NCBI GenBank assembly: GCA_019247695.1
Contig: JAFBAP010000188.1
Span: 1 to 32,465, forward strand
Source: Verrucomicrobiota bacterium
Lineage (GTDB): Bacteria > Verrucomicrobiota > Verrucomicrobiia > Chthoniobacterales > JAFAMB01
Reading direction: 5' to 3'
Length of the DNA stretch: 32,465 nt
Shown: in pieces, positions 1,268 through 32,215 of the stretch
Layout: every line of letters starts with the position of its first letter
Numbering within the stretch: position 1 is the stretch's first letter
The notes under the pieces: generated by a model
Database searches by the model: none
What the model was told of the DNA's origin: nothing
Seen by the model: only the letters and a program-made list of their open reading frames with translations
Translations under genes and position numbers: made by a program

Positions 1268-1726
1268 AGTTTGTTTCCTTGTTCGAATGAGGTATCCAGG
1301 TTTTTTGGAGGGGTCGACCGGCCGGTTACGACATCCGGCTGGTCGAGTTTTCCCTCCAATCCCGTGAGCTGACTGCATTCAGGCTCGGCCGAATCCTCGC
1401 CCCTGACGCAAGCGGTTGCTATCAGGATCGTGCGGCCACTGTCGGATTCATGCGGGAAAAGGTAAGTCCGCCTTCCTTCGCCTTGGCCTTGGCCTTGCCC
1501 TTGCCGGAGCAAACCCCATAGGCGCAATCGGCGCCCCCATGCGCACGAACGGCGCCCGGCCGCCCGGCACACGCGCCGCGTGAGCGCCTGCCGTCGAACG
1601 GCGCTTGAATGCTGGACGACGCTCCCCGGCAATCCACGATTCCACCGGGCAAATGCAGAGCGTGGTGTTATGGAAAATCGAATAAAGTACAGTAAAGTTA
1701 ACCCAATCTCAGAAATTTTAAGGCCC
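1268..1726. other. Intergenic region between divergent genes
   Basis: No convincing gene. A short purine/pyrimidine-biased tandem run of CCTTGG-like units lies near 1478-1515. The last 60 bases (1668-1726) become AT-rich, with two similar AGTACAGTAAAGTT-type stretches, and probably hold the promoter of the membrane-protein gene that follows. Reading frames seen here on the minus strand give low-complexity Lys-Ala or Arg-rich peptides and are not genes. Confidence 0.6.
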
Positions 1727-3373
1727 ATGCCCACCGAACCTCCCCAGAAACTCCGCATCCGGTGGATGCCCCGAGGCCCCGTAAGACCCTTCTACGTCGA
1801 CGTAAAAAGCATCGAGGAAGGAGTCAAAATCATGGAAGCCCTCGCGGATTATGACCGGTTCCGGCTCGAAAATGGCCTGAAAGGCGGATACGCCAACGCA
1901 GGTGGGCTTGAGATATTCGAAAACGGCGAATGGGTAAATTGGACCGATCCCGATCGCGAATCCGACCCTCCAACGGTAAAGCCAGCCTGCACGCCAAAGG
2001 GACCGAGCTACTACCGGCTAACGGTAGCCGCGATCATGGGAGTCTGCATTGCCACAAGCACCGCGACAGCCCTGGGATTCGCCTGCCACGGGATCGGCCG
2101 GAGCGCCGCCGCCGGGGCGCTCATCACAGGCTCCGTTGCAGCAATTCTCACATGGTACACCCTGAGGAGCACCCCGACGGAAATACCGGCGGCCGCGTCA
2201 CAAGCGTCACAAAAGAGCCCGAAGTGGCTGACCTGGCTCGTAGCCGGCGCCTTCGCCGCATTCGCTCTCAGGGCCTTCTCACAAGCGCTCTTCATCAAGC
2301 ACGGAATCCTGTACGCAAACGATCCCTATGACACGCCGATGCACGTCAGTTACGTCAACTACCTGGCGAGCGGTGTCGCCTTCTGGCCGGCGGATTGCAT
2401 CTTTTCCAGGGAACCCCTTCACTACCCGATAGGGGTCGACCTCTTTACCAGCCTGTTCGTCGTCGAGGGGATACCCATCCAATGGTGCTTCCTCGTCTTG
2501 GGAATACTTGCCTCCGCCGCAACGGCCACATCCCTCTGGAAATGGGGAGGAACCTTCACGGTCGCCGGATTTCTCTTTAACGGAGGGCTGGAGGGCTTCA
2601 AATTCCTCGCAGGAAAAGGGCTGGAACAAATCACCTACGAAGTGGACTGGAAAAGCATTCCTATCATTATGTTCGCTCTGCAACGAACCTTGCTCTATGC
2701 CCTGCCCGCAGGACTCATCCTGCTCATCAGCTGGAGAAAGCGCCTCCTCAGGAACGAGAAAGGGCTCCCCATTTGGATCGAATGGTGCCTGTACACTACC
2801 ATGCCGCTCTTCCACATCCACACTTTCATGTTCCTCTCCGCCATGCTGGGCATCTGGGCCCTTACAGGCCCCAAAAGGAAGGAAGCCGGCAAGCTCATCC
2901 TGCTCTCAATTCCTCTTGCAACCCTCCTTGTCAAACTCGTGGCAGGATTCGGAAACGCAGGAATCATCCACCTGCAATGGGGATGGTGCCAAGGGGACAA
3001 GGAATTCTGGCGGTACTGGCTGGCCAACTTCGGAATCCTTCCCATCCTTATGGCGCTGCTGCCGCTGTGGTTATCGGCGGCGAAAAAAGTTAGACAGGCG
3101 GACACCGGAATCACTATCCCCTCCATCCTGCTCTTCCTGGTTTTCCTCAACGTGATGTTCGCACCTTACGCCTGGGACAATACGAAACTGCTCCTTTGGT
3201 GCTACCTCGGAATCCTGCCCGCAATCGGAGAAATGCTCTTATGGGCGAAAACATGGTTGGAAAACAAATACGCAAAAACCACGGCGGGATGGCCGCTCGC
3301 GCAATGCGGCTTCGCCACAGTCCTGACCGCCCTCTTTTTTTTCCGGAGCCATTACGCTTTGGAGCTACATTGA
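1727..3373 (+). CDS. Multi-span membrane protein, GT-C-like; frameshifted N-terminal part
   Basis: 548 residues as read. Residues 1-90 form a soluble domain (IRWMPRGPVRPFYVDVKS, then an ENGLKGG...GEWVNW segment). About 11-12 hydrophobic segments follow from residue 100. A conserved-looking loop between early helices contains DPYDTPMHVSYV and FSREPLHYPIGVD, the kind of Asp/His-rich loop found in integral-membrane GT-C glycosyltransferases; that assignment is by resemblance only. The frame closes at 3373, just after eight T's at 3335-3342. The next frame, entered by a +1 shift there, runs on as SGAITLWSYIENGPRTWE and into the ORF ending at 3767, giving one 679-residue protein. Base composition is less GC-rich than in the neighbours, suggesting transfer. 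The ATG at 1727 has a weak AAGG; 1670 is an alternative. Confidence 0.75.
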   Translation: MPTEPPQKLRIRWMPRGPVRPFYVDVKSIEEGVKIMEALADYDRFRLENGLKGGYANAGGLEIFENGEWVNWTDPDRESDPPTVKPACTPKGPSYYRLTVAAIMGVCIATSTATALGFACHGIGRSAAAGALITGSVAAILTWYTLRSTPTEIPAAASQASQKSPKWLTWLVAGAFAAFALRAFSQALFIKHGILYANDPYDTPMHVSYVNYLASGVAFWPADCIFSREPLHYPIGVDLFTSLFVVEGIPIQWCFLVLGILASAATATSLWKWGGTFTVAGFLFNGGLEGFKFLAGKGLEQITYEVDWKSIPIIMFALQRTLLYALPAGLILLISWRKRLLRNEKGLPIWIEWCLYTTMPLFHIHTFMFLSAMLGIWALTGPKRKEAGKLILLSIPLATLLVKLVAGFGNAGIIHLQWGWCQGDKEFWRYWLANFGILPILMALLPLWLSAAKKVRQADTGITIPSILLFLVFLNVMFAPYAWDNTKLLLWCYLGILPAIGEMLLWAKTWLENKYAKTTAGWPLAQCGFATVLTALFFFRSHYALELH

Positions 3374-9190: not shown

Positions 9191-9751
9191 TCAGCCAAAC
9201 AGATGACTCAGGGCCAGTTCAAACCCCGGTAACAAACCGGTCGACAGCACGTCACCCGGTTTGAGCACCTTCGGCGGTCGCCCGACATCTGCGCTGAACC
9301 GGTATACCTCGGCGGTCTTGCGCTTCGGATCGATGATCCAAAGCTCCGCCGCCCCGTTTTGGGCGTAACCAAGGCGTTTCTCGTTCCGGTCGTAACGCGC
9401 CGTTTTGGGCGAGAGCACCTCAATCACCAGGTCAGGAACCCCCACCGCGCATTGGTCGGTAAGCCGGTCGAGGTGAGCACGGGCAAAAAACATCACGTCG
9501 GGTTGGTAACGTTCTTCTCCCTCGGGCCCCTTTAGCCTCACCTCGAAAGGGGCTTGGTAAACCTCCCCCAGAGCTGGATGGGCCCTCAGGAACAGGGAGA
9601 TTTCGACAAAGAGCTCCCCCGCAAGGCGTTGGTGGAAGCGGTTCGGTGGGGGCGACACAATCAGGTGACCTCGAATGTATTGGTGAGGCAGCACGCTCTC
9701 GGGCAGGGCGTCGAACGCCTCTACAGTCATGGGTTGCTCGATGGTGTGCAT
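9191..9751 (-). CDS. Uma2 family (DUF820) endonuclease-like protein
   Basis: 186 residues, the usual Uma2 length. Family order is complete: MTVEAFDALPE near the start, RGHLIVSPPPNRFHQRLAGE, APFEVRL, the acidic YQPDVMFF, VPDLVIEVLSPKT (Asp and Glu of the PD-(D/E)XK-like core), YDRNEKRLGYAQNGAAELWIIDP with the core Lys, and a C-terminal GFELALSHLF. The fold belongs to the restriction-endonuclease superfamily; biological role and target are unknown. These genes typically multiply in cyanobacteria and some soil phyla; a second one lies at 31563-32138. The start at 9751 gives a standard N-terminus. Confidence 0.92.
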   Translation of the reverse strand: MHTIEQPMTVEAFDALPESVLPHQYIRGHLIVSPPPNRFHQRLAGELFVEISLFLRAHPALGEVYQAPFEVRLKGPEGEERYQPDVMFFARAHLDRLTDQCAVGVPDLVIEVLSPKTARYDRNEKRLGYAQNGAAELWIIDPKRKTAEVYRFSADVGRPPKVLKPGDVLSTGLLPGFELALSHLFG

Positions 9752-22174: not shown

Positions 22175-22813
22175 ATGAACGAATCACCGGCCGAAATCCT
22201 CCGTGAATTTGGACCTTTTCCGGGTATCGACGGCGTGCATGGCGTCACGTATGACGGCCGGCACGTCTGGTTTGCGTCCGGAGACAAGCTGAACGCCTTT
22301 GATCCGGCGAGCGGCCGGATACTGCGCTCGATCGAGGTCGCCGCGGATGCAGGAACGGCCTTCGACGGCCAGCACTTGTTTCAGCTTGTCGAGGATCGCA
22401 TCCAGAAGATCGACCCGAAGACCGGCCGCGTGCTCGCGGCGATTCCGGCCCCCGGCGGCGGCGGTCACTCGGGACTCGCGTGGGCCGAAGGGACGCTCTG
22501 GGTGGCGCAGTATCACGACCGGAAAATCCATCAGATCGATCCCCAAACGGGGGCGATTCTTCGCACAATCGAGTCCAGCCGTTTCGTTACCGGGGTCACC
22601 TGGGTCGACGGAGAGCTCTGGCACGGCACCTGGGAAGGTGAGGAGAGCGATTTAAGGCGCGTCGATCCTCGAACCGGAGAGGTCCTGCAGAAGCTCGACA
22701 TGCCCCCCGGGGCGGGCATTTCGGGCCTCGAGTCCGACGGCGGCGATCGGTTCTTCTGCGGAGGAGGAAGCGGCGGCAAAATCCGAATCGTCCGCCGGCC
22801 CGCGCGTTCTTGA
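22175..22813 (+). CDS. Beta-propeller protein, glutamine-cyclotransferase/YncE-like
   Basis: 212 residues built from about four or five blades, each with a DGRHVWFAS..., DPASGRILRSIE or DPKTGRVLAAIP signature: YDGRHVWFASGDKLNAFDPA, GQHLFQLVEDRIQKIDPKTG, AEGTLWVAQYHDRKIHQIDP, VDGELWHGTWEGEESDLRRV. The repeats resemble glutamine cyclotransferase and PQQ-like propellers. No signal peptide is seen, so a cytoplasmic protein of unknown role. It follows the HTH regulator by 9 bases and must be co-transcribed. The C-terminus (FFCGGGSGGKIRIVRRPARS) completes the last blade. Confidence 0.83.
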   Translation: MNESPAEILREFGPFPGIDGVHGVTYDGRHVWFASGDKLNAFDPASGRILRSIEVAADAGTAFDGQHLFQLVEDRIQKIDPKTGRVLAAIPAPGGGGHSGLAWAEGTLWVAQYHDRKIHQIDPQTGAILRTIESSRFVTGVTWVDGELWHGTWEGEESDLRRVDPRTGEVLQKLDMPPGAGISGLESDGGDRFFCGGGSGGKIRIVRRPARS

Positions 22814-23034: not shown

Positions 23035-24309
23035 ATGAAAACCATGCGCACGCCGCGCACCCGAAACGTCGTTACGCCGAAGCAAACTGGCTTATTCGTC
23101 GTTGGAACGCTGACCTTGACGTGCCTTCTGCTGTCCGTCCTATCCCTCCGAGCCGATGAAGCGCCGCTCAAGATCGGTGTCCTCGTGACCCTCACCGGAC
23201 CGTTCGCCCAGTTGGGTGCGGACGGCGCTGACGGAATCAAGATCGCCGTTGATGAGTTCGGCGGGAAAGTCGCCGGACGTCCCATTCAGATTTTCACGGA
23301 GGACAGTGCGGCCGATCCGGATAAGGCGATCGAGAAGACTCGCGCGTTGGTGAAACGTGACGGCGTTCAGCTCATCCTTGGCCCCCTGAGCGGCGCCGAA
23401 GGGGAAGCCGTGAAGAAGAACGCCGATGAATGGTCCAACACCACGATTGTAGTTGCCGGCGCGGCGGCGGAGGATATCACGATGCGCGGGGTGAAGCCGA
23501 ATGTCTGGCGCACGTCGTACACCGGTGCCCAGCCAATGTTTCCGCTGGGCGAATGGGCTTTTAAAAACGGCTACAAACGCGTGGCGATCGTGGCCGAAGA
23601 TTATGCTTTCCCTTACGCCCAGGTCGGCGGCTTTATGCTGACCTACTGCCATGCCGGCGGAAAGGTCGCGAAGAAATTTTGGATTCCCCTGGGAACGAGC
23701 GATTACAGCGCGATTTTCCCCCAGCTTCCTCCGGACATTGACGCCCTCTACGTGGCGTTGGGCGGCACCGATGCCGTAAACTTTGTTAAGCAGATGCAGG
23801 AGTTCGGCCTGCTCGGGAAGGTCAAGCTCCTGGGCGGCACGGTAACCGTCGATGCGAGCCAGCTCGCGTCTGTCGGTGAATTGATGGACGGCATCGTCTC
23901 CGGCTCGATCTTCAGCGGCGACCTGACGACCCCGGAATTCAAGGCGTTCGACCAGGCCTTCGAGAAGCTGCGCCAGCGGCCGCCGTCGCTGTTCGCGGAA
24001 AACTACTATCGCGCGGCTAAGTGGGCATTTCTGGCCCTGCAGAAGGTTGGCGGTAAGATTGAAGACCAGCAGGCGTTCCGGGACGCGCTGCAAGGAACGT
24101 CTTTCAACGCCCCGGCCTCACCCGTCTCCTTTGACCAGTACCATAACGTGGTTACTGACGTTTACCTCAACCAGGTCAAAAAGATCGGCAATGAATACCG
24201 CAACTCGGTCATTCAGGTTTACCCCAAAGTCAGTCAGTTTTGGAACATCAGCCCGGAAGAGTACCAGAAGCAGCCATCCTACGGGAGGACCTTTCCGGAT
24301 TGCCCATGA
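23035..24309 (+). CDS. ABC transporter substrate-binding protein, Liv type
   Basis: 424 residues. A basic N-terminus and hydrophobic core (TGLFVVGTLTLTCLLLSVLS) form a signal peptide ending near ...LRADEA, about residue 43. The mature part is a type I periplasmic-binding fold: LKIGVLVTLTGPFAQLGADG, ADGIKIAVDEFGGKVAGRPI, a TEDSAADPDKAIEKTRALVK region, ILGPLSGAEG (ligand loop) and VWRTSYTGAQPMFPLGEWAF. No lipobox, so it is soluble periplasmic. Such proteins feed Liv-type importers for branched amino acids, amides, aromatic or carboxylic acids; the ligand cannot be told. The stop overlaps the next gene by four bases (ATGA). Confidence 0.93.
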   Translation: MKTMRTPRTRNVVTPKQTGLFVVGTLTLTCLLLSVLSLRADEAPLKIGVLVTLTGPFAQLGADGADGIKIAVDEFGGKVAGRPIQIFTEDSAADPDKAIEKTRALVKRDGVQLILGPLSGAEGEAVKKNADEWSNTTIVVAGAAAEDITMRGVKPNVWRTSYTGAQPMFPLGEWAFKNGYKRVAIVAEDYAFPYAQVGGFMLTYCHAGGKVAKKFWIPLGTSDYSAIFPQLPPDIDALYVALGGTDAVNFVKQMQEFGLLGKVKLLGGTVTVDASQLASVGELMDGIVSGSIFSGDLTTPEFKAFDQAFEKLRQRPPSLFAENYYRAAKWAFLALQKVGGKIEDQQAFRDALQGTSFNAPASPVSFDQYHNVVTDVYLNQVKKIGNEYRNSVIQVYPKVSQFWNISPEEYQKQPSYGRTFPDCP

Positions 24310-25055
24310 GCGCCGTTCTCCTGGACCGGGTTTCGCGGCGGTTTGGGGGGCTTTTCGCGGTAAAGGAAATCTCGCTCAAGGTGGAACCCGGTGCACGCCT
24401 CGCCATCCTGGGCCCGAACGGTGCCGGCAAATCGACGCTGTTTAACCTGATTACGGGCGACCTGCGGCCGACCTCGGGCCGGATCGAGCTCTTCTCGCGC
24501 GATGTCACGCGGCAGCCTGCGTTCCGCCGGTCGCGGGCGGGCATCGCGCGCACCTACCAGGTATCGGCCCTGTTTACGGACCTCGACGTAGCACATAACC
24601 TGTACCTCGGAATCCTGGGCAACTCGAAGCGGCGCTACGATTGGGTCCGCCTGGTCCGGCGTGATAAGGAGCATTTGCGGCGCGCCGAAGAGATTGCCAG
24701 AACGATGGGACTGGAAAGCCGGTTCCGGTCCCCCGTGGCTGAACTCTCGCACGGGGAGCGCCGCCAGTTGGAGTTAGGCCTGGCCCTCGCTGGAAACCCG
24801 CGGCTCATCCTGCTTGACGAGCCGGCTGCCGGGCTCTCCCCCGCTGAGCGCAACCACTTGCGAGAACTGCTTTCCGACCTGCCGAGGGCGGTGACGCTGG
24901 TGTTGGTCGAACACGACATGGACATCGCCCTTCGCGTGGCGGATCGCGTCGCGGTGCTGGATAACGGGCGGCTGGTTGCCGAAGGCGATCCGCAGGGAAT
25001 CACGACCAATCCCCTGGTGCAGGAGATTTACCTTGGTACAAAGCACGGAGCCTGA
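24306..25055 (+). CDS. ABC transporter ATP-binding protein, LivG-like
   Basis: 249 residues. Walker A GPNGAGKST (about residue 37), Q-loop region ARTYQVSALFTDLDVAHNL, signature ELSHGERRQLELGLALAGN, Walker B LILLDEPAAGL and switch His in VLVEHDMDIAL. The C-terminal GDPQGITTNPLVQEIYLG is the typical LivG tail. It supplies one of the two nucleotide-binding subunits of the importer, at the inner face of the membrane. The start ATG overlaps the binding-protein stop (ATGA). A longer frame beginning at 24240 reads over that gene and is rejected. Confidence 0.96.
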   Translation: MSAVLLDRVSRRFGGLFAVKEISLKVEPGARLAILGPNGAGKSTLFNLITGDLRPTSGRIELFSRDVTRQPAFRRSRAGIARTYQVSALFTDLDVAHNLYLGILGNSKRRYDWVRLVRRDKEHLRRAEEIARTMGLESRFRSPVAELSHGERRQLELGLALAGNPRLILLDEPAAGLSPAERNHLRELLSDLPRAVTLVLVEHDMDIALRVADRVAVLDNGRLVAEGDPQGITTNPLVQEIYLGTKHGA

Positions 25056-25779
25056 GCCCTTGCTGACGGTTGACGACGTCCACGTCTACCTGGATTCTGC
25101 GCACGTTCTGCAGGGGACCTCGCTGACGCTAACCCAAGGCGTGGTCGGGATTGTCGGCCGGAACGGCATGGGCAAAACCACGCTCGTGCGCACGATCATG
25201 GGACTCACGCCGGCCCGGCGCGGTCACATTCGTTTTGCCGGTCAGGACATTACGAATTTAAGAACCCACCAAATTGCCACGCGGGGAATCGCTTACGTTC
25301 CGCAAGGGCGTGCGGTATTTCCTTCGCTAAGCGTGCATGAACACCTGAAAGTGGCCGCCCGCGGAGCAAGGGCGGGCGGTTGGACCCCGGACCGGGTTTA
25401 CGACCTGTTCCCGCGTCTGGCGGAACGGCGCAGGTTCGGTGGCGGATCGCTTTCCGGCGGCGAACAACAGATGCTGGCGATCGGCCGCGCCCTGGTCACC
25501 AACCCGAAACTGCTGGTGATGGACGAGCCCTCCGAAGGCTTGTCCCCGGTCATCCTTGCACACCTGATTGAGACGTGCGGGGTTCTCATCAACCAGCAGA
25601 TGCACATTTTGATCGTTGAGCAGAATCTGCACTTTGTAAGTTCGCTCGTGCGTGACGAACTCCTGATCATGCTCTCCGGCCGAATCGCCAACCGCGTTTC
25701 GGGTCAGGTACTGCTCAAAGACCAGGCGCTCCGGGAGCGCTTCCTGGGGGTGGCCCTCGGTACCGGCACCGGTCATTAG
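25033..25779 (+). CDS. ABC transporter ATP-binding protein, LivF-like (TTG start)
   Basis: 248 residues. Walker A GRNGMGKTT (about residue 41), THQIATRGIAYVPQGRAVFP (LivF Q-loop region), signature GSLSGGEQQMLAIGRAL, Walker B LLVMDEPSEGL and the switch in LIVEQNLHFV. It is the second ATPase subunit. The start is best placed at TTG 25033: AGGAG ends 7 bases upstream and the protein then begins MVQSTEPEPLLTVDDVHVYL; the nearest in-frame ATG is 57 bases further upstream, deep inside the preceding gene. The gene overlaps that gene by 23 bases. Near 25356-25380 the coding sequence contains a GC-rich palindrome encoding AARGARAGG. Confidence 0.94.
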   Translation: MVQSTEPEPLLTVDDVHVYLDSAHVLQGTSLTLTQGVVGIVGRNGMGKTTLVRTIMGLTPARRGHIRFAGQDITNLRTHQIATRGIAYVPQGRAVFPSLSVHEHLKVAARGARAGGWTPDRVYDLFPRLAERRRFGGGSLSGGEQQMLAIGRALVTNPKLLVMDEPSEGLSPVILAHLIETCGVLINQQMHILIVEQNLHFVSSLVRDELLIMLSGRIANRVSGQVLLKDQALRERFLGVALGTGTGH

Positions 25780-25813
25780 TTCTGCAACCCTCATCCATCA
25801 CCGAATCAGCCCC

Positions 25814-26662
25814 ATGAAACAGTATTCACGCAGTGAATTTCTCGATCGCCTCAACCAAAAGCGTCGCCGCGGTGAGCCGCTGGTCATGGGCGGCGCCGGC
25901 ATCGGCCTGGTGGCAAAGGTCGCCGACCGGGCAGGCATTGACGCCATCTTCATCTACAATACCGGCCCGTTTCGGATGGACGGTCACGGCTCTTTGTCGG
26001 GTTACCTGGCGTACGGCGATTCCAATCAGATGACCTTGGATCTTGGACGGCACGTGCTCCGCGTCGTGGAAGAATCCCCCGTCATCGGCGGGATCGGCGC
26101 CGCGGATCCTTACCGCGACATCGACCAGCTACTCGATGAAATGATGCGGTTAGGCTTTTCGGGCATCACTAACGTACCCACGGCGGGGTTGTACGACGGA
26201 ACCTTTCGTAAACACATCGACGCCACGAACCTGGGTTACCCGGAAGAAGTCAAGCTCATCGAGCGCTGCCGCCGGCGAGACATCTTCACCTCAGCGTACG
26301 CCTTCGCTCCCGATGAATGCCGGATGATGGCTGATGCGGGCGCCGACATCATCAGCCCGCACGTGGGCCTCACCAGCGGCGGCCTGATCGGTGCGAAAGA
26401 AGTTCCGGATCTCGACCAGGCGTGTGAGAAGCTGTCAGCGATGTGCGAGGCAGCCCGGGCCGTTCGATCCGACGTGATCGTTTTAGCCCACGGCGGCCCG
26501 TTCGAAGATCCCGCTTCCGTGCAGGTCGCGTTCGACCGGACGCCCGTGGACGGTTTTCTCGGAGCATCCTCCATCGAGCGATTGCCCGTCGAGCGCGCCA
26601 TCACGGACATCGTGCAAGGATTCCGGGCCCTCAAACTGGGCCGGCGCCAGCCTGCGGGTTAG
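25814..26662 (+). CDS. TIM-barrel enzyme, PEP-hydrolase-like family (COG5564 type), paralogue 1
   Basis: 282 residues, cytoplasmic. Motifs in barrel order: LVMGGAGIGLVAKVADRAGI (residues 23-42), DAIFIYNTGPFRMDGHGSLS, PVIGGIGAADPYRDIDQLLD, FSGITNVPTAGLYDGTFRKH, YAFAPDECRMMADAGADIIS, and AHGGPFEDP with His 226. These define the predicted TIM-barrel family annotated as phosphoenolpyruvate hydrolase/ possible dioxygenase, related to PEP mutase; its true reaction is unproven. In plants this barrel forms the C-terminal domain of the Tm-1 protein, and in bacteria it is usually a neighbour of UPF0261, as here. It lies 34 bases after the second ATPase gene, on the same transcript. Confidence 0.92.
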   Translation: MKQYSRSEFLDRLNQKRRRGEPLVMGGAGIGLVAKVADRAGIDAIFIYNTGPFRMDGHGSLSGYLAYGDSNQMTLDLGRHVLRVVEESPVIGGIGAADPYRDIDQLLDEMMRLGFSGITNVPTAGLYDGTFRKHIDATNLGYPEEVKLIERCRRRDIFTSAYAFAPDECRMMADAGADIISPHVGLTSGGLIGAKEVPDLDQACEKLSAMCEAARAVRSDVIVLAHGGPFEDPASVQVAFDRTPVDGFLGASSIERLPVERAITDIVQGFRALKLGRRQPAG

Positions 26663-26695
26663 GGCGGAGGGGGGATTGCTTTTCCTGGCAGGTTT

Positions 26696-26714
26696 AAAGG
26701 AGGAATAAAGGAGG
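26696..26714 (+). promoter_or_regulatory. Tandem Shine-Dalgarno sites before the Tm-1-like gene
   Basis: AAAGGAGG occurs twice, at 26696-26703 and 26707-26714. The second has a 7-base spacing to the ATG at 26722; the first could serve as a standby site. This is the strongest ribosome-binding signal in the operon and suggests the Tm-1-like protein is needed in larger amounts than its neighbours. Confidence 0.75.
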
Positions 26715-26721
26715 AAAACCG

Positions 26722-27972
26722 ATGCCCACCGTCGTTCTCGCCGGAACTCTGGACACCAAGGGCCCGGAATACGAGTTTGCCCGCGCCCGCCTTCTCGAAC
26801 ACGGGGTCACCCCGTTGGTCGTCGATTTCGGTATCCTTGGTGAGCCCGCCTTCGCGCCGGATATTCCGGCGGACGAGGTGGCGCGGGCCGGCGGCAAACC
26901 GCTGTCGGAGCTGCGGTTTGCGCGGGAAGGTTCCGACACCCGCGTCGTGGCCCTCGAGACCATGGCCAGGGGCCTGATCCGGATCTTTGCGCAGCTCCGC
27001 GCCGAAGGAAGGTGCGACGGGGTGCTGGGACTCGGCGGCTCCGGCGGGACCACGGTCATCAGCGCGGCCATGCGAACGTTGCCGTTGGGACTCCCCAAAG
27101 TGATGGTTTCCACGCTGGCTTCCGGCAACGTCGCCGGCTTTGTGGGGACAAAAGACATTTACATTGCAAACTCGGTTACCGACATTGCCGGCCTGAACCG
27201 GGTGTCGCGCAAGCTCATCGCCAACGCCGTCAATGCGATCGCCGGCATGGCCCTCGGGGCGGCGGCGTCGCCCGTGCAAGATCATCGACCGCTCGTTGCG
27301 ATCACGATGTTTGGCGTTACGACCCCCGGTGTCCTCCGGATCGTTCGACGGCTCGAGCAGCACGGGTTGGAGACGATCGTCTTTCATGCCGTCGGTTCAG
27401 GCGGCCGGTCCATGGAAGCGATGATTGACGAGGGCCTGATTGATGGCGTGATCGATTACACCACCAGCGAACTGACCGACAATTACCTCGGCGGCATCTT
27501 TTCGGCCGGGCCTCATCGGCTCGAGGCGGCCGCCCGGCGCGGAATCCCTCAGGTGGTGGTTCCGGGTGCATTGGAAGTTATCAACTTCGGCCCGCGACAC
27601 ACCCTCCCGGCCGTGTTCGACGTTCCCGAACGCAAGCTGATCGTGCACAACGCCAACGTGTGCGCGGTAAGGGCAAACGCGCAGGAGTGCGCGGAACTGG
27701 GGCGCATCTTCGCTGAGAAGGTTAACCGCGCAACCGGCCGAACGGCCGTCCTCCTGCCGTTGAGAGGGAAGGACAAATATGAACAGCCGCCGGACGGGTT
27801 GTGGATCGATCCCGCGGCCGATAAAGCGATGTACGACCAGATCCGGCAGAACCTTCGCGCCGACATTCCCCTCCGGGAGATAGACGCCAACATCAACGAT
27901 CCGGCGTTCGCGGATGCGACCACCGACGTATTCCTGGACTTGTGGCACGCGGCCCATCCCGCGGCGGCCTGA
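26722..27972 (+). CDS. Tm-1-like ATP-binding protein (UPF0261)
   Basis: 416 residues, full length for the family. N-terminal Rossmann-like half: VVLAGTLDTKGPEYEFARAR (residues 4-23), VDFGILGEP, GVLGLGGSGGTTVISAAMR, KVMVSTLASGNVAGFVGTKD. The second half contains ITMFGVTTPGVLRIVRRLEQ, AVGSGGRSMEAMIDEG, VIDYTTSELTDNYLGGIFSA, VVVPGALEVINFGPRHTLPA and ERKLIVHNANVCAVRANAQE. This family is named for the N-terminal domain of tomato Tm-1, which binds ATP and tobamovirus replication protein; the bacterial function is unknown. It sits between two TIM-barrel genes and inside an importer operon, implying a catabolic role with them. Start ATG 26722 follows tandem Shine-Dalgarno sites. Confidence 0.95.
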   Translation: MPTVVLAGTLDTKGPEYEFARARLLEHGVTPLVVDFGILGEPAFAPDIPADEVARAGGKPLSELRFAREGSDTRVVALETMARGLIRIFAQLRAEGRCDGVLGLGGSGGTTVISAAMRTLPLGLPKVMVSTLASGNVAGFVGTKDIYIANSVTDIAGLNRVSRKLIANAVNAIAGMALGAAASPVQDHRPLVAITMFGVTTPGVLRIVRRLEQHGLETIVFHAVGSGGRSMEAMIDEGLIDGVIDYTTSELTDNYLGGIFSAGPHRLEAAARRGIPQVVVPGALEVINFGPRHTLPAVFDVPERKLIVHNANVCAVRANAQECAELGRIFAEKVNRATGRTAVLLPLRGKDKYEQPPDGLWIDPAADKAMYDQIRQNLRADIPLREIDANINDPAFADATTDVFLDLWHAAHPAAA

Positions 27973-27976
27973 TCCT

Positions 27977-28804
27977 ATGAACGTGCGCGAATTTCTCGAG
28001 CGGATGGTAGAAGGGCGCCGGCAGCGGCGGCCGATGATCTGCGCCGGGGTGGGCAGCGGCGTCACGGCAAAAGGCGCCGTGGACGGCGGGGCGGACCTTC
28101 TCGCCGTTTACAACACGGCCGTCTACCGCATCATGGGGTTACCGACTGCGCTGGCCTTTTTACCGTACGATGATGCCAACCGGTTGACCTTTGATGTCCT
28201 GCCGCAAGTGATTGCCGCGGCCGGATCCACCCCGGTGCTTGCGGGCATCGGCGTCCATGACCCGCGCGTAGATCTTGACAGGGTGCTCACCCAGGTGGCC
28301 GATCTGCGCGTCGCGGGCGTTACCAACGAACCGTTCATCGGCATTTATTCCCCGGACCTGCGGGCCCACCTGGAAGCGGCAGGACTCGGTTTCGGGCGCG
28401 AGGTGTCGTTGGTTCGTCAAGCGGTCAAGCGTGGTCTGCTAACTCTGGGCTGGGTATTCGATTCAAGCCAGGCCGCCGCGATGGCGGAGGCCGGCGCTCA
28501 TCTCCTGGGAATCAACCTGGGCTTGACCACGTTTGGCTCAAACGATCCAAACCGCCTTGACCAGGCCATCGGAGCGCTCCGGGAAATCGCCAACGCTGCG
28601 CAGAGCGTCCGCCGCGACGTTTTCACCCTGATCCATGGCGGCCCTTTCAACGACCCCGAAGCCGTTGCAGCCGCGCTGCGTGCGACCGGCGCTGACGGCT
28701 ACGTCACCGGATCGACGGCCGAAGCCGGCCCGGTCCGTACCGCCGTCGCCGACGCGATCCGGCGCTTCAGGACAGCCTCAACCTCGCCAGCAAGCCGAGA
28801 ATGA
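27977..28804 (+). CDS. TIM-barrel enzyme, PEP-hydrolase-like family, paralogue 2
   Basis: 275 residues, same family as the gene at 25814 but clearly diverged. Motifs: MICAGVGSGVTAKGAVDGGA, DLLAVYNTAVYRIMGLPTAL, PVLAGIGVHDPRVDLDRVL, VAGVTNEPFIGIYSPDLRAH, LGWVFDSSQAAAMAEAGAHL, and IHGGPFNDP with His 220. Shared with paralogue 1 are GxG, YNT, the GIG-x-x-DP and the HGGPFxDP loops; the loop after YNT (MDGHGSLSG in paralogue 1) is replaced by IMGLPTALAF, so the substrate pocket may differ. It starts 4 bases after the Tm-1-like gene and its stop overlaps the permease start (ATGA): tight translational coupling of enzyme and transporter. Confidence 0.9.
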   Translation: MNVREFLERMVEGRRQRRPMICAGVGSGVTAKGAVDGGADLLAVYNTAVYRIMGLPTALAFLPYDDANRLTFDVLPQVIAAAGSTPVLAGIGVHDPRVDLDRVLTQVADLRVAGVTNEPFIGIYSPDLRAHLEAAGLGFGREVSLVRQAVKRGLLTLGWVFDSSQAAAMAEAGAHLLGINLGLTTFGSNDPNRLDQAIGALREIANAAQSVRRDVFTLIHGGPFNDPEAVAAALRATGADGYVTGSTAEAGPVRTAVADAIRRFRTASTSPASRE

Positions 28805-29652
28805 ATAACACGTTTTTATTGATCATGAACGGCCTCACTTACGGGGCCCTGCTTTTTATCGTCTCGAGTGGTTTCACCCTCATTTTCGGCCTGATGAGGA
28901 TCGTCAACATGAGCCATGGGGTCTTCTACATCCTGGGGGCGTACGTAAGCTATACCGTTCAGAGCAAGACCGGCAATTGGGTTGTCGGCACGCTCGCCGG
29001 CACCGCGGCTGTCGGGCTGATGGCGCTCATCGTCTATCAACTGATCAACCGCGTAAACGGGGACCTGCCGCGTACGTTATTGACGGTCGGCATTGCCATG
29101 ATCCTGGCCGACTTCTGCCTTTGGGCATGGGGCGGCCTACCGCTTACTTTGCAGGCGCCTGCGCAGTTGCGGAGACCCGTCATTCTCGGTAGCTTCATTT
29201 ACCCGGGATTTCGGTCCTTCGTCCTTGTCACGGCCGTCGTCATCGGCTTGGCGCTTTGGGTACTGCTGCACCATACTAAGTTCGGCGCCATCGTCCGCGC
29301 GGGAGTCGACAACCGGTGGATGGTTGCCGCGTTAGGAATTAACATCGAACGCATCTTTGCGCTGACCTTTTTGTTAGGCGGCCTCCTGGCCGGGTTCGGG
29401 GGCGCGATCGGTGGCTCTTACCTTGCCTTCGGTCCCGGAACGGATTTCATCATTTTGACCTACGCACTCGTGGTCGTGATCCTCGGCGGGATGGGGAGCC
29501 TGGCCGGCTCGGCCGTCGGGGCCGTCGTCGTCGGCCTGGTGGACAGCTTCGGCCGGACTTACTTCAGCGAACTCGCCATTTTCCTCCTGAGCGGCACGTT
29601 GATTCTGGTGTTGGCCTTCCGGCCTCAAGGTCTCTTCGGGAGGCCCGGTTGA
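28801..29652 (+). CDS. ABC transporter permease, LivH-like
   Basis: 283 residues, about eight membrane helices. N-terminal LIMNGLTYGALLFIVSSGFT and LIFGLMRIVNMSHGVFYILG are characteristic of LivH; IVRAGVDNRWMVAALGINIE corresponds to the cytoplasmic coupling loop, and FIILTYALVVVILGGMGSLA with GSAVGAVVVGLVDSF to the late helices. With the LivM-like partner it forms the membrane channel of the importer. The start overlaps the stop of the second TIM-barrel gene, and its own TGA overlaps the next ATG by one base (TGATG). Confidence 0.96.
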   Translation: MNNTFLLIMNGLTYGALLFIVSSGFTLIFGLMRIVNMSHGVFYILGAYVSYTVQSKTGNWVVGTLAGTAAVGLMALIVYQLINRVNGDLPRTLLTVGIAMILADFCLWAWGGLPLTLQAPAQLRRPVILGSFIYPGFRSFVLVTAVVIGLALWVLLHHTKFGAIVRAGVDNRWMVAALGINIERIFALTFLLGGLLAGFGGAIGGSYLAFGPGTDFIILTYALVVVILGGMGSLAGSAVGAVVVGLVDSFGRTYFSELAIFLLSGTLILVLAFRPQGLFGRPG

Positions 29653-30635
29653 TGCGAAAAGAATTCTCACCGTTAGTCGCCGGTCTCGTGGTGGCGCTCA
29701 TCGCGATGACCGTCCCCGTATGGCTGGGCGGCTACTACGTGCAGTTAGCTACCCGCAGCCTGATCATCAGCATGGTAACGATGAGCTTTGTTCTGCTGGC
29801 CGGCTACAGCGGCATGGTATCTCTCGCGCAAATGGCTTTTTTCGCCATGGCCGGGTACGTGATCGGCGTCGGCGTAAAGACCCACCAGTCGTCATTCGCA
29901 GTCGCGATTCCGCTGGCGGTCTTCGGGGCAACGCTGCTGAGCGCCCTTTTCGCAACCGTCGCAATCCGAGCTCAGGGGAATTACTTTCTTATGATGACCC
30001 TGGCTTTGGCCCAGTTGTTTGAGGGCGTCGCGATGCAGTGGGCCTCCGTGACGAACGGCTACAACGGAATCGCCGGCATACCGCGTCCGGTTCTGTTCGG
30101 CCGTTGGTCCTTGCAGGATACGACGCCGTTGTACTACGCCGGCCTGGTTTGTACGGCCGGCTGCTTTGCCCTGCTTCGCCATTTGTTAGGTTCACCGCTC
30201 GGACTTTGCTTTCGGGGCGTCCGGGAAAACCCGCGCCGGCTGGCCGCTCTTGGGTTTAACGTGCAGATGTACCGATTCATCGCGATCGTGGTTTCAGGTG
30301 CCGTGGCCGGTGTAGCGGGGGTCCTGGGCGTTTTTCAGAGCGGGGTGATTGCGCCGCACACCGCCAATCTGCAAAGCGCCGTCATGGTGGTAATGGCAGC
30401 CCTGGTTGGGGGCGTATCCCGACTCGAGGGCGCGATCCTGGGCTCGTTCGTGACTGTATTTCTGATTGCGGTGACGAGTTCTTTAACGCCTCGCTACTGG
30501 ATGATCGTCGGGGCGATCTTCACCGCCGTCGTGATTTTTTTGCCGAACGGCTTGTTAGGGAAGCGGCTCCGCCGAAAGCGGCGGGATGAACGCCTTGTGG
30601 ATCGCCCGGCGAGCGCCGATGGATTAGCCAAGTAG
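29652..30635 (+). CDS. ABC transporter permease, LivM-like
   Basis: 327 residues with about ten hydrophobic segments. Family marks: VLLAGYSGMVSLAQMAFFAM and AGYVIGVG, YFLMMTLALAQLFEGVAMQW, NGYNGIAGIPRP, CFRGVRENPRRLAALGFNVQ (coupling loop) and GGVSRLEGAILGSFVTVFL. The C-terminus (LRRKRRDERLVDRPASADGL) is basic and cytosolic. It completes the importer. The ATG at 29652 is preferred to the TTG one codon earlier because of the one-base overlap with the LivH-like stop. No fused ATPase domain, consistent with the separate ATPase genes upstream. Confidence 0.95.
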   Translation: MRKEFSPLVAGLVVALIAMTVPVWLGGYYVQLATRSLIISMVTMSFVLLAGYSGMVSLAQMAFFAMAGYVIGVGVKTHQSSFAVAIPLAVFGATLLSALFATVAIRAQGNYFLMMTLALAQLFEGVAMQWASVTNGYNGIAGIPRPVLFGRWSLQDTTPLYYAGLVCTAGCFALLRHLLGSPLGLCFRGVRENPRRLAALGFNVQMYRFIAIVVSGAVAGVAGVLGVFQSGVIAPHTANLQSAVMVVMAALVGGVSRLEGAILGSFVTVFLIAVTSSLTPRYWMIVGAIFTAVVIFLPNGLLGKRLRRKRRDERLVDRPASADGLAK

Positions 30636-30662
30636 TGAAGTTAAGGCCACGGCTGCCCCCAA

Positions 30663-30690
30663 GCGGGATTCAGGGCTGGCCGGATCCCGC
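30663..30690. other. Inverted repeat between permease and deoR-like genes
   Basis: GCGGGAT and ATCCCGC are perfect 7-base arms around a 14-base loop, 28 bases after the permease stop. No T-run follows. It may stabilise or attenuate the transcript ahead of the regulator gene. Confidence 0.35.
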
Positions 30691-30744
30691 CGCCATTTGC
30701 GCCCGTGCAGGAAGGTTGATCCAGGTTCGACTAAGCCAAAGTTC

Positions 30745-31560
30745 ATGGAAGCTCTAAACGGATCGCCAACGACCGATCCGCCTTTTTCCAGGGCGGTTCG
30801 CCAGGAACGAATCGCCGAATACGTGTTGCAACATTCTTCCGTTCGGGTCCAGGAACTTGCTGTGAGGTTCAACGTCAGCATCATGACGATCCACCGGGAC
30901 CTCGAAGACCTGAAACGGCAGGGCGTACTGCGCAAAGTACGAGGCGGCGCCACCGCCCGACCGTCGAGCCTTTTCGAGAGCGACATCCGTTACCGGATCA
31001 GCGTAACCCCATGCGAAAAGGCGGCCATCGCGCGCGCGGCCTCCCGGCTGGTCGAACCCGGACAGGCGGTGATGCTCGATGACTCAACCACCTCGCTCGC
31101 ATTCGCGAAGCTCCTACCTGCGTTCGAGTACCTGACGGTTATCACCAATTCGCTTTCCGTCCTGCGCGAGCTCAGCCCTCACAAGCACGTTCATTTGGTG
31201 GCGCTCGGGGGTGACTACCTGCCCCAATACGACGCGTTTGCGGGCATCCTGTGCGAGCAAGCGATCACTTCTCTTCGGGTCAACTTGCTCTTCACCTCCA
31301 CGTCGGCGGTGCTCGACCTGGTGGCTTATCACCAGGAACAAGGAATCATTCAGGTAAAGCGCGCAATGATAAATTCAGCCGAACGCTCCATCCTGCTGGT
31401 CGACAGTACGAAATTCGGACGGTCCGCGCTCCATCAGTTAGCACGGTTGCAGGATTTTGACCTGGTGATCGTGGACGACCGGTTGGCAAGCCCGGCATTG
31501 CAGGGCATGCGCAATGCCGGCGTAAACGTGGAATTGGCGACGGTCGACGATTCGACGTGA
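30745..31560 (+). CDS. DeoR family transcriptional regulator
   Basis: 271 residues. N-terminal HTH: RQERIAEYVLQHSSVRVQEL, AVRFNVSIMTIHRDLEDLKR, QGVLRKVRGGATAR (residues 17-70), the DeoR signature with the recognition helix SIMTIHRDL. The C-terminal sensor has MLDDSTTSLAFAKLL, LTVITNSLSVLREL, VALGGDYLPQYDAFAG and ILLVDSTKFGRSALHQLARL. DeoR regulators usually respond to phosphorylated sugars or sugar acids, which hints that the pathway passes through such an intermediate. It lies 109 bases after the permease gene in the same direction and probably represses the operon from the TTTCG-rich site near 22915. ATG 30745 was preferred over a frame start at 30697. Confidence 0.94.
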   Translation: MEALNGSPTTDPPFSRAVRQERIAEYVLQHSSVRVQELAVRFNVSIMTIHRDLEDLKRQGVLRKVRGGATARPSSLFESDIRYRISVTPCEKAAIARAASRLVEPGQAVMLDDSTTSLAFAKLLPAFEYLTVITNSLSVLRELSPHKHVHLVALGGDYLPQYDAFAGILCEQAITSLRVNLLFTSTSAVLDLVAYHQEQGIIQVKRAMINSAERSILLVDSTKFGRSALHQLARLQDFDLVIVDDRLASPALQGMRNAGVNVELATVDDST

Positions 31561-31562
31561 GC

Positions 31563-32138
31563 TTAATCGCCGCTGAACAGGAAGGACGCATCGATCTCGA
31601 CGCCGGGCAAAGCCTGCGGCGATACTTTGCCTTCCCTTACGATCGCCGTTTCGTAACGGTCAGCGTGAAGCGTAAAGACGCGCAGGCAGCGGTTCCGAAC
31701 GTCCACCACCCAGTATTCCGGGATTCCGGCCTGCCGGTAGAGGTCAGCCTTAAAACCCAAGTCGCGGGTGAGGGTGCTATCGGAAATTTCAATGACCAAC
31801 AGCACATCCGTTGCGGTGAGGTGCCGCCGGCGGCTAACGCCGGAGCGGTAAATCACCAGGTCCGGTTCGGGTACGTTGTGCCGCGGGATGGGCAAGGAAC
31901 GTCCGGGTCCCACCCCGAAACGGTCGTCCTCCCGGCGATTGAAGGTTCTGGTTAGGGTATCCAGGATCCAGTGGTGTTCGGGGCCGATGGGCGCCATGGG
32001 GATGAGTTGACCGTCCAGCAGTTCGACGCCCGCATCCTCCTCAAGAATGCCGGCCTCGACCAACCGGTAATACTCCTCAATGGTAAAGCGGCGCACGGCG
32101 TCGAAGTGGACCGGCGGCGTTTGAGTACGGGTGGTCAT
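31563..32138 (-). CDS. Uma2 family endonuclease-like protein, second copy
   Basis: 191 residues. Family elements: FTIEEYYRLVEAGILEEDAG, VELLDGQLIPMAPIGPEHHW, a VPEPDLVIY strand, DVLLVIEISDSTLTRDLGFK with the core acid and Lys, and LYRQAGIPEYWVVDVRNRCL. The ISDSTL and EYWVVD parts mark a different Uma2 subgroup from the 9191 gene. The start is ambiguous: ATG 32138 gives the usual N-terminus, while ATG 32186 adds MTRYVSVPIAEATACP, a leader that is shared with the 5' region of the 71-residue gene. It converges on the deoR-like gene with a two-base gap. Confidence 0.92.
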   Translation of the reverse strand: MTTRTQTPPVHFDAVRRFTIEEYYRLVEAGILEEDAGVELLDGQLIPMAPIGPEHHWILDTLTRTFNRREDDRFGVGPGRSLPIPRHNVPEPDLVIYRSGVSRRRHLTATDVLLVIEISDSTLTRDLGFKADLYRQAGIPEYWVVDVRNRCLRVFTLHADRYETAIVREGKVSPQALPGVEIDASFLFSGD

Positions 32139-32215
32139 AGGGCAGGCGGTCGCCTCTGCAATTGGTACTGAAACATACCTGGTCATACGCCAGGGCGCAT
32201 TCTTTAAACTTGAAG
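32139..32215 (-). promoter_or_regulatory. Conserved leader region, second copy
   Basis: Similar, on the minus strand, to 5246-5320: GTTTAAAGAATGCGCCCTGG corresponds to GTTTAGAAGATGCGCTCTGA, followed by ATGACCAGGTATGTTTCAGTA. Here the short frame MTRYVSV is in phase with the Uma2 gene, whereas at 5246 it ends just before the gene. It may act as promoter and leader for small accessory genes. Confidence 0.5.

Follow-up and report, generated by a model that had tools for sequence, protein, structure and literature searches.

An operon linking UPF0261 and PF09370 proteins to a Liv-type importer in a Verrucomicrobiota bacterium: a candidate import-phosphorylate-convert unit

The DNA analyzed here (the window) is a stretch of 32,465 nucleotides and is one of the 191 contigs that make up the 5.2-Mb assembly of a Verrucomicrobiota bacterium. 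It carries an operon of nine same-strand genes, which profile searches show to be ordered as follows: substrate-binding protein (SBP), ATPase, ATPase, TIM-barrel protein (TIM1), UPF0261 protein, second TIM-barrel protein (TIM2), permease, permease, and DeoR-family regulator (Table 1). A preliminary description of this DNA had named these nine genes and their families, and all of them are present. The ATP-binding cassette (ABC) importer is complete, with a Peripla_BP_6 SBP, two ATPases, and two BPD_transp_2 permeases. We propose that the operon is a catabolic unit that imports a small molecule, phosphorylates it, and converts the product, a reading to which we give a probability of about 0.55.

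Layout of the operon

Several gene starts were reset from the sequence, including that of TIM2 and that of the regulator, for which the ATG in Table 1 is the most likely start and a TTG at 30697 is a possible alternative. The SBP gene overlaps the G-type ATPase gene by ATGA, the two ATPase genes overlap by 23 nt, TIM2 overlaps permease H by ATGA, and the two permease genes are joined by a TGATG overlap. The F-type ATPase gene is separated from TIM1 by 34 nt, TIM1 from UPF0261 by 59 nt containing a strong Shine-Dalgarno sequence, and permease M from the regulator by 109 nt. Between the UPF0261 stop and the TIM2 start there are 4 nt ('TGATCCTATG') and no overlap. Thus, the earlier view that ATGA or TGATG overlaps tie the enzyme genes to the transporter holds for TIM2 and permease H but not for UPF0261 and TIM2 or for the F-type ATPase and TIM1. 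Overlaps bind the SBP gene to the ATPase genes and TIM2 to the permease genes tightly; the ATPase-TIM1, TIM1-UPF0261, and permease M-DeoR joints are merely close. Promoter-like and terminator-like sites were not commoner than in shuffled sequence.

Table 1. Genes of the operon, with positions in the window
Gene product	Position	Strand	Profile evidence
SBP, Liv/HAAT type (Peripla_BP_6), signal-peptide-like N-terminal stretch	23035..24309	+	PF13458, E 7.6e-64
ABC ATPase, LivG/UrtD type (G-type)	24306..25055	+	PF00005 + BCA_ABC_TP_C
ABC ATPase, LivF/UrtE type (F-type), TTG start	25033..25779	+	PF00005; best NCBIfam matches UrtE/LivF
TIM1, barrel of family PF09370 ('PEP hydrolase-like'), presumably an active enzyme	25814..26662	+	PF09370, E 2.6e-95
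UPF0261, homologue of the Tm-1 N-terminal domain, presumed ATP-dependent small-molecule kinase	26722..27972	+	PF06792 + PF23189
TIM2, divergent PF09370 paralogue	27977..28804	+	PF09370, E 6e-71
LivH-type permease (permease H)	28801..29652	+	PF02653, E 7.7e-37
LivM-type permease (permease M)	29652..30635	+	PF02653, E 1.8e-28
DeoR-family regulator, ATG start	30745..31560	+	PF08220 (DeoR helix-turn-helix) + PF00455 (DeoRC sensor)

The enzyme families PF06792/PF23189 and PF09370 are the same as those of the Tm-1-like pair, which has been shown to coevolve and to occur together in 97% of bacterial genomes that bear TBST (Yang et al. 2016, PMC5028733). The window differs from that pair in having separate genes, a second TIM copy, and an importer operon, and a transporter linkage does not appear in the consulted part of the paper. 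It also differs from plant Tm-1, in which UPF0261 and the TIM barrel are fused in one chain, since here the two are separate open reading frames with stops between them. In a literature search UPF0261 was named in five papers, of which only three also mention a transporter: a comparison of Brucella genomes, a list of virulence genes, and a study of fungi. A search by family accession returned nothing.

Recurrence of the linkage and the binding-protein clade

We gathered UPF0261 loci by family search from relatives, from the window's phylum, from the phyla of a Chloroflexota genome and an Actinomycetota genome, and from annotated plasmids. A contig of the same genus (L018, from a Verrucomicrobiota metagenome-assembled genome [MAG] that is the nearest named record) retains the order ATPase-ATPase-TIM1-UPF0261-TIM2-permease, with 85 to 92% identity to the window for the G-type ATPase, TIM1, UPF0261, TIM2, and the permease. 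The exact interleaved order was seen only within this genus. Two Chloroflexi MAGs carry a cassette with the order permease-permease-SBP-ATPase-ATPase-UPF0261-TIM, as do Thermomicrobium roseum and another four genomes from that phylum sample; two further genomes of that Chloroflexota/Thermomicrobium sample have it in partial or contig-cut form, and it is also present in three Verrucomicrobiota genomes of the window's own family. The G-type ATPase of the window shares 52 to 56% identity with the ATPase encoded in the UPF0261 operons of Chloroflexota/Thermomicrobium, and the TIM1-UPF0261-TIM2 trio occurs in the Chloroflexota genome L113 as well. In looser cases, with other gene orders, Liv-type genes lie beside a UPF0261-TIM pair on a Haloarcula plasmid and a Bradyrhizobium plasmid.

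Most UPF0261 loci surveyed had no Liv-type neighbor; a Rubrobacter locus, for example, adjoins a sodium symporter. For an adjacency count we used 78 UPF0261 loci that had been fetched regardless of transporters. A Liv-type SBP was adjacent in 6 of them, compared with 1.3 expected from SBP density (p = 0.002, which is optimistic because the six loci come from few lineages). The linkage is recurrent, not universal. It is not unique to this genome, and it extends to several UPF0261 lineages and to other phyla.

We next built a tree of the UPF0261-linked SBPs and further Liv-type SBPs, most of which come from the same genomes. In it, 13 of the linked SBPs, all from Verrucomicrobiota or Chloroflexota, group in a single clade (support, 100/98) that includes none of the unlinked SBPs sampled; the Haloarcula and Bradyrhizobium linked SBPs fall outside it. 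This clade is sister (94/95) to that of the solved structures 4zpj, from Sphaerobacter, and 4ey3 and 4evq, from R. palustris. In pairwise scoring, the window SBP matched 4zpj with 172 bits, 4ey3 with 139, 4evq with 119, and 4f06, also from R. palustris, with 106, whereas the Leu/Ile/Val binder 1z15 reached 39 bits and the leucine-specific binder 1usg 30. The R. palustris proteins 4ey3, 4evq, and 4f06 are ones that we take to be binders of hydroxybenzoate-type aromatic acids. Against the branched-chain amino-acid SBP model the window protein scored 49 bits (cutoff, 477), so it lacks the closeness to LivJ/LivK that an ordinary amino-acid binder would have. The preliminary description had named two outcomes that would refute it, a linkage unique to this genome and an ordinary leucine/isoleucine binder; the sequence comparisons gave neither.

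The enzymes have a different history. On the UPF0261 tree the linked proteins require 5 to 6 label changes, and a single clade for the UPF0261 proteins of the three Liv-linked lineages was rejected (log-likelihood loss, 278; approximately unbiased [AU] test, p = 2e-76), with the tested group picked in knowledge of a quick tree. Since the linked SBPs form one clade and their UPF0261 partners do not, importer and enzymes have different histories and yet have been kept together, which is the expected outcome of a shared substrate class. Like other Liv/HAAT importers, this one has all five subunits; unlike them, its SBP belongs to a clade of UPF0261-linked proteins. These sequence relationships fit an importer dedicated to the UPF0261-TIM enzymes, as had been suggested earlier.

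The Chloroflexota Liv-linked clusters (L040, L079 to L082, L022, L083, and L084) run on into genes for GntR, cyclase, PPDK_N-type, phosphoenolpyruvate (PEP)-utilizer-type, FAA hydrolase, and molybdenum hydroxylase proteins, and each may be part of a heteroaromatic or phenolic catabolic island. Their PEP-synthase-like pair consists of a PPDK_N protein of 343 amino acids and a PEP-utilizer-domain protein of 579 amino acids, the same build as HpeI and HpeH. On two Bradyrhizobium plasmids (L141, 10036-13523; L163, 10048-13303), a UPF0261-TIM pair is followed by genes for an FAD dehydrogenase and a pyruvate kinase. The window genome itself has a second UPF0261-PF09370 pair (G000:C185:1-3948, L024), 44 to 46% identical to that of the window and belonging to other UPF0261 and TIM lineages; beside it, in divergent orientation, lies a gene whose product clusters with PF09370-sigma-54 activators.

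The UPF0261 protein and the two TIM barrels

The window UPF0261 protein scored 190.7 bits with PF06792 and 265.1 bits with PF23189 (cutoff, 27), and its structure model matched Tm-1 (3wrw) with a Z score of 39 and 9mpy with a Z score of 31. PDB entry 9MPY, released in September 2025, shows acetovanillone bound to Saro_1862, a UPF0261 protein from Novosphingobium aromaticivorans. The two proteins have the same full-length architecture, are 34% identical in a structural alignment, and share near-universal polar residues: the window protein keeps 18 of 19 such positions, and the remaining one changes from D to E. The clade of the window protein includes that of L113, which is 67% identical and, as in the window, has TIM1 and TIM2 as its neighbors on either side.

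Close relatives of Saro_1862 occur on plasmids of Sphingobium yanoikuyae, Sphingomonas bisphenolicum, and Pseudomonas putida YC-AE1, where they are followed by genes for a biotin carboxyl carrier, a biotin carboxylase, a carboxyltransferase-like protein, and a HAD phosphatase. Unlike the window, these loci have biotin carboxylase and HAD phosphatase neighbors and no TIM barrel nearby. On plasmids of bisphenol or phenolic degraders (L165, L166, and L167), UPF0261 replaces the PEP-synthase-like kinase before carboxylase and phosphatase genes of Hpe/Acv type, and a BKACE or acyl-CoA ligase gene adjoins. In the Hpe/Acv pathway, the two-component kinase HpeHI acts at the first position and phosphorylates acetovanillone, with carboxylation and dephosphorylation after it (PMC9618137; PMC12167813); HpeHI-HpeCBA-HpeD is a validated pathway (PMC9618137). 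For acetovanillone, N. aromaticivorans has a single-component kinase, MarK, according to PMC13101465, which cites Hall et al. 2025. In another UPF0261 clade, several members directly precede a HAD hydrolase gene and two adjoin homoprotocatechuate genes. Given the Saro_1862 structure, the HpeHI-slot context, MarK, and this HAD-adjacent clade, small-molecule kinase is the best reading of the UPF0261 family. Orphan status, with no metabolic role, was correct as of the paper on the origin of Tm-1 (PMC5028733); as repeated in the preliminary description, it is outdated.

A TIM-less UPF0261 clade (L135, L137, L142, L136, L139, and L168) occurs with a HAD hydrolase, class III aminotransferases, an aldehyde dehydrogenase, and APC or TTT importers, and some of its loci carry homoprotocatechuate genes. 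A VceA-like role for UPF0261, in converting aroylacetate, was dropped because the carboxylase-phosphatase context puts UPF0261 in the kinase slot. Fold likenesses of the N domain to dihydroxyacid dehydratase and cutinase were not used, as Z scores of 10 to 12 are common to several unrelated alpha/beta folds.

TIM1 and TIM2 scored 319.1 and 239.2 bits, respectively, with PF09370 (cutoff, 33.8). From 100 family members we defined 66 conserved columns, of which TIM1 keeps 58, including K35, Y48, N49, R54, N71, D98, N120, H183, H226, S252, and E255. TIM1 is a full-length homologue of PDB 2p10, the putative phosphonopyruvate hydrolase Mll9387 of Mesorhizobium (E 5e-77; model Z score, 31.5; 39% identity); TIM2 is far more divergent. 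On Mesorhizobium plasmid pMLa, a PF09370 gene likewise adjoins UPF0261. The next folds after 2p10 for the TIM1 model were PanB, IGPS, TrpA, and a barrel titled 'conserved phosphate binding site' (Z scores, 17 to 19), a likeness of the model that would agree with a phosphorylated substrate. TIM2 keeps 41 of the 66 columns, with changes that include H183N, T123F, D128S, Y162W, and R256A. Perhaps it has a second specificity or an altered pocket, or is a partner subunit of TIM1.

PF09370 barrels that are fused to sigma-54 activators, or cluster with them, adjoin UPF0261-TIM pairs at five loci (L036, 6304-8103; L047; L048; L049; L163). These barrels have lost many presumed catalytic residues and hence seem to be an enzyme domain turned ligand sensor for its own operon. 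TIM2 may have gone the same way, which would make the trio partly regulatory and would be compatible with the import-phosphorylate-convert model. Its loss of 25 of the 66 columns, including H183, points that way, as does the occurrence of PF09370-sigma-54 fusions near UPF0261 genes. However, TIM2 lies outside the fusion clade (100/99), grouping weakly with TIM1, and it keeps K35, Y48, N49, D98, H226, and E255, which are mostly lost in the fused domains (K35, Y48, N49, and H226 in most fusions). We consider a sensor role for TIM2 unlikely.

Proposed pathway and competing explanations

In the pathway that we propose, the dedicated Liv-type ABC importer would take up a small hydroxylated compound. 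UPF0261, as a kinase of the broad Saro_1862/MarK type, would use ATP to phosphorylate it. The product of this step would then be converted by TIM1, probably through C-C or ester/enol cleavage, and TIM2 might assist as a partner subunit or supply a second specificity. Binding of the phosphorylated intermediate by the DeoR protein would derepress the operon. This scheme resembles the Hpe/Acv pathway (PMC9618137) in that a kinase acts first and the phosphorylated form is then converted; it differs in that a carboxylase, a HAD phosphatase, and a PEP-synthase-like kinase are absent from the nine genes in profile searches. The compound had been predicted to be a carboxylate or sugar acid. A phenolic or aromatic compound is favored because of the kinship of the SBP, the ligand of Saro_1862, and the content of the Chloroflexota Liv-linked clusters; we put the chance of such a substrate at roughly even, and it is more likely than an amino acid.

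Several observations weigh against the proposal, above all in its phenolic form. Profile searches recognized no aromatic catabolic gene in the window, and DeoR sensors usually bind sugar phosphates. The window UPF0261 and Saro_1862 belong to separate clades, each with 100/100 support, and proteins of the Saro_1862 type had no TIM partner in the loci seen. At 34% identity, kinase activity and phenolic preference may fail to carry over from Saro_1862 to the window protein; judged from the sequences, the kinase reading should transfer better than the phenolic substrate. MarK is probably Saro_1862, an equation that we infer. Likeness to phosphate-binding barrels at the level of the fold is common to many TIM barrels. 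Finally, several rhizobial UPF0261-TIM pairs adjoin sugar ABC importers and Gfo/Idh and cupin genes.

Some of these points fit catabolism of a sugar acid or polyol, in which the importer would bring in the sugar acid, UPF0261 would phosphorylate it, and the TIM barrels would split it in the manner of an aldolase. The DeoR regulator, the rhizobial and other pairs near sugar ABC importers and Gfo/Idh, cupin, and ThuA genes, and the TIM1 fold likeness would all suit such a substrate. The AgaR/DeoR-type NCBIfam matches of the regulator scored below their cutoffs. The linked-SBP clade, however, is sister to one whose SBPs presumably bind aromatic acids, a UPF0261 protein has been crystallized with acetovanillone, and aromatic gene contexts recur. 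We regard a sugar acid or polyol as possible, and as less probable than a phenolic compound. UPF0261 and TIM1 could instead form another kind of two-subunit enzyme, such as a dehydratase or hydrolase, with ATP in a structural or regulatory role. Our searches turned up no TIM-paired UPF0261 whose activity has been measured, the crystal entries of Tm-1 include helicase complexes, in which ATP presumably bridges the partners, and the N domain shows a weak likeness to dihydroxyacid dehydratase (Z score, 12.3, barely above unrelated folds). The conserved core common to the window protein and Saro_1862 argues for a kinase, as do the HpeHI-slot context and the MarK kinase cited in PMC13101465; we consider such a two-subunit enzyme improbable. 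Chance placement of the enzymes within an ordinary branched-chain amino-acid importer operon is very improbable. Every transporter part is of Liv/Urt type and the exact interleaved order is confined to one genus, but the same enzymes recur with the same SBP clade in another phylum and in a different order, which contradicts chance insertion, and the SBP matches leucine binders with far lower scores than its closest relatives of solved structure.

The import-phosphorylate-convert reading joins known parts, namely, the published UPF0261-TIM coevolution and a recently reported kinase, to a Liv-type importer whose SBP clade is tied to them. Neither in bacteria nor in plants did we find a reaction that has been demonstrated for the TIM-barrel partner or a TIM-paired UPF0261. 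An operon with its own SBP lends itself to a ligand screen, in which the ligand found would probably be the substrate itself or a near precursor of it. The linked-SBP clade, spread over two phyla, offers several proteins to screen, including that of the cultured T. roseum. If the reading is right, the Tm-1 virus-resistance protein would be tied to recently described phenol-kinase chemistry. More tentatively, UPF0261 and PF09370 might be a general module of a kinase followed by a phosphate-dependent lyase, serving many import systems for phenolic or related compounds in bacteria and archaea, with plant Tm-1 as its fused bifunctional form recruited against viruses.

Elsewhere in the window, the SBP gene is preceded at a distance of 221 bases by a gene of the same strand for a short beta-propeller protein (glutamine cyclotransferase/SMP-30-like; 22175-22813). 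Two Uma2-family genes are on the minus strand (9194-9751 and 31566-32186), the second just downstream of the DeoR gene. In an open reading frame of 596 amino acids (1583-3370), residues 56 to 114 match the phage family 'superinfection exclusion gene product 17' (PF17420, E 9e-16).

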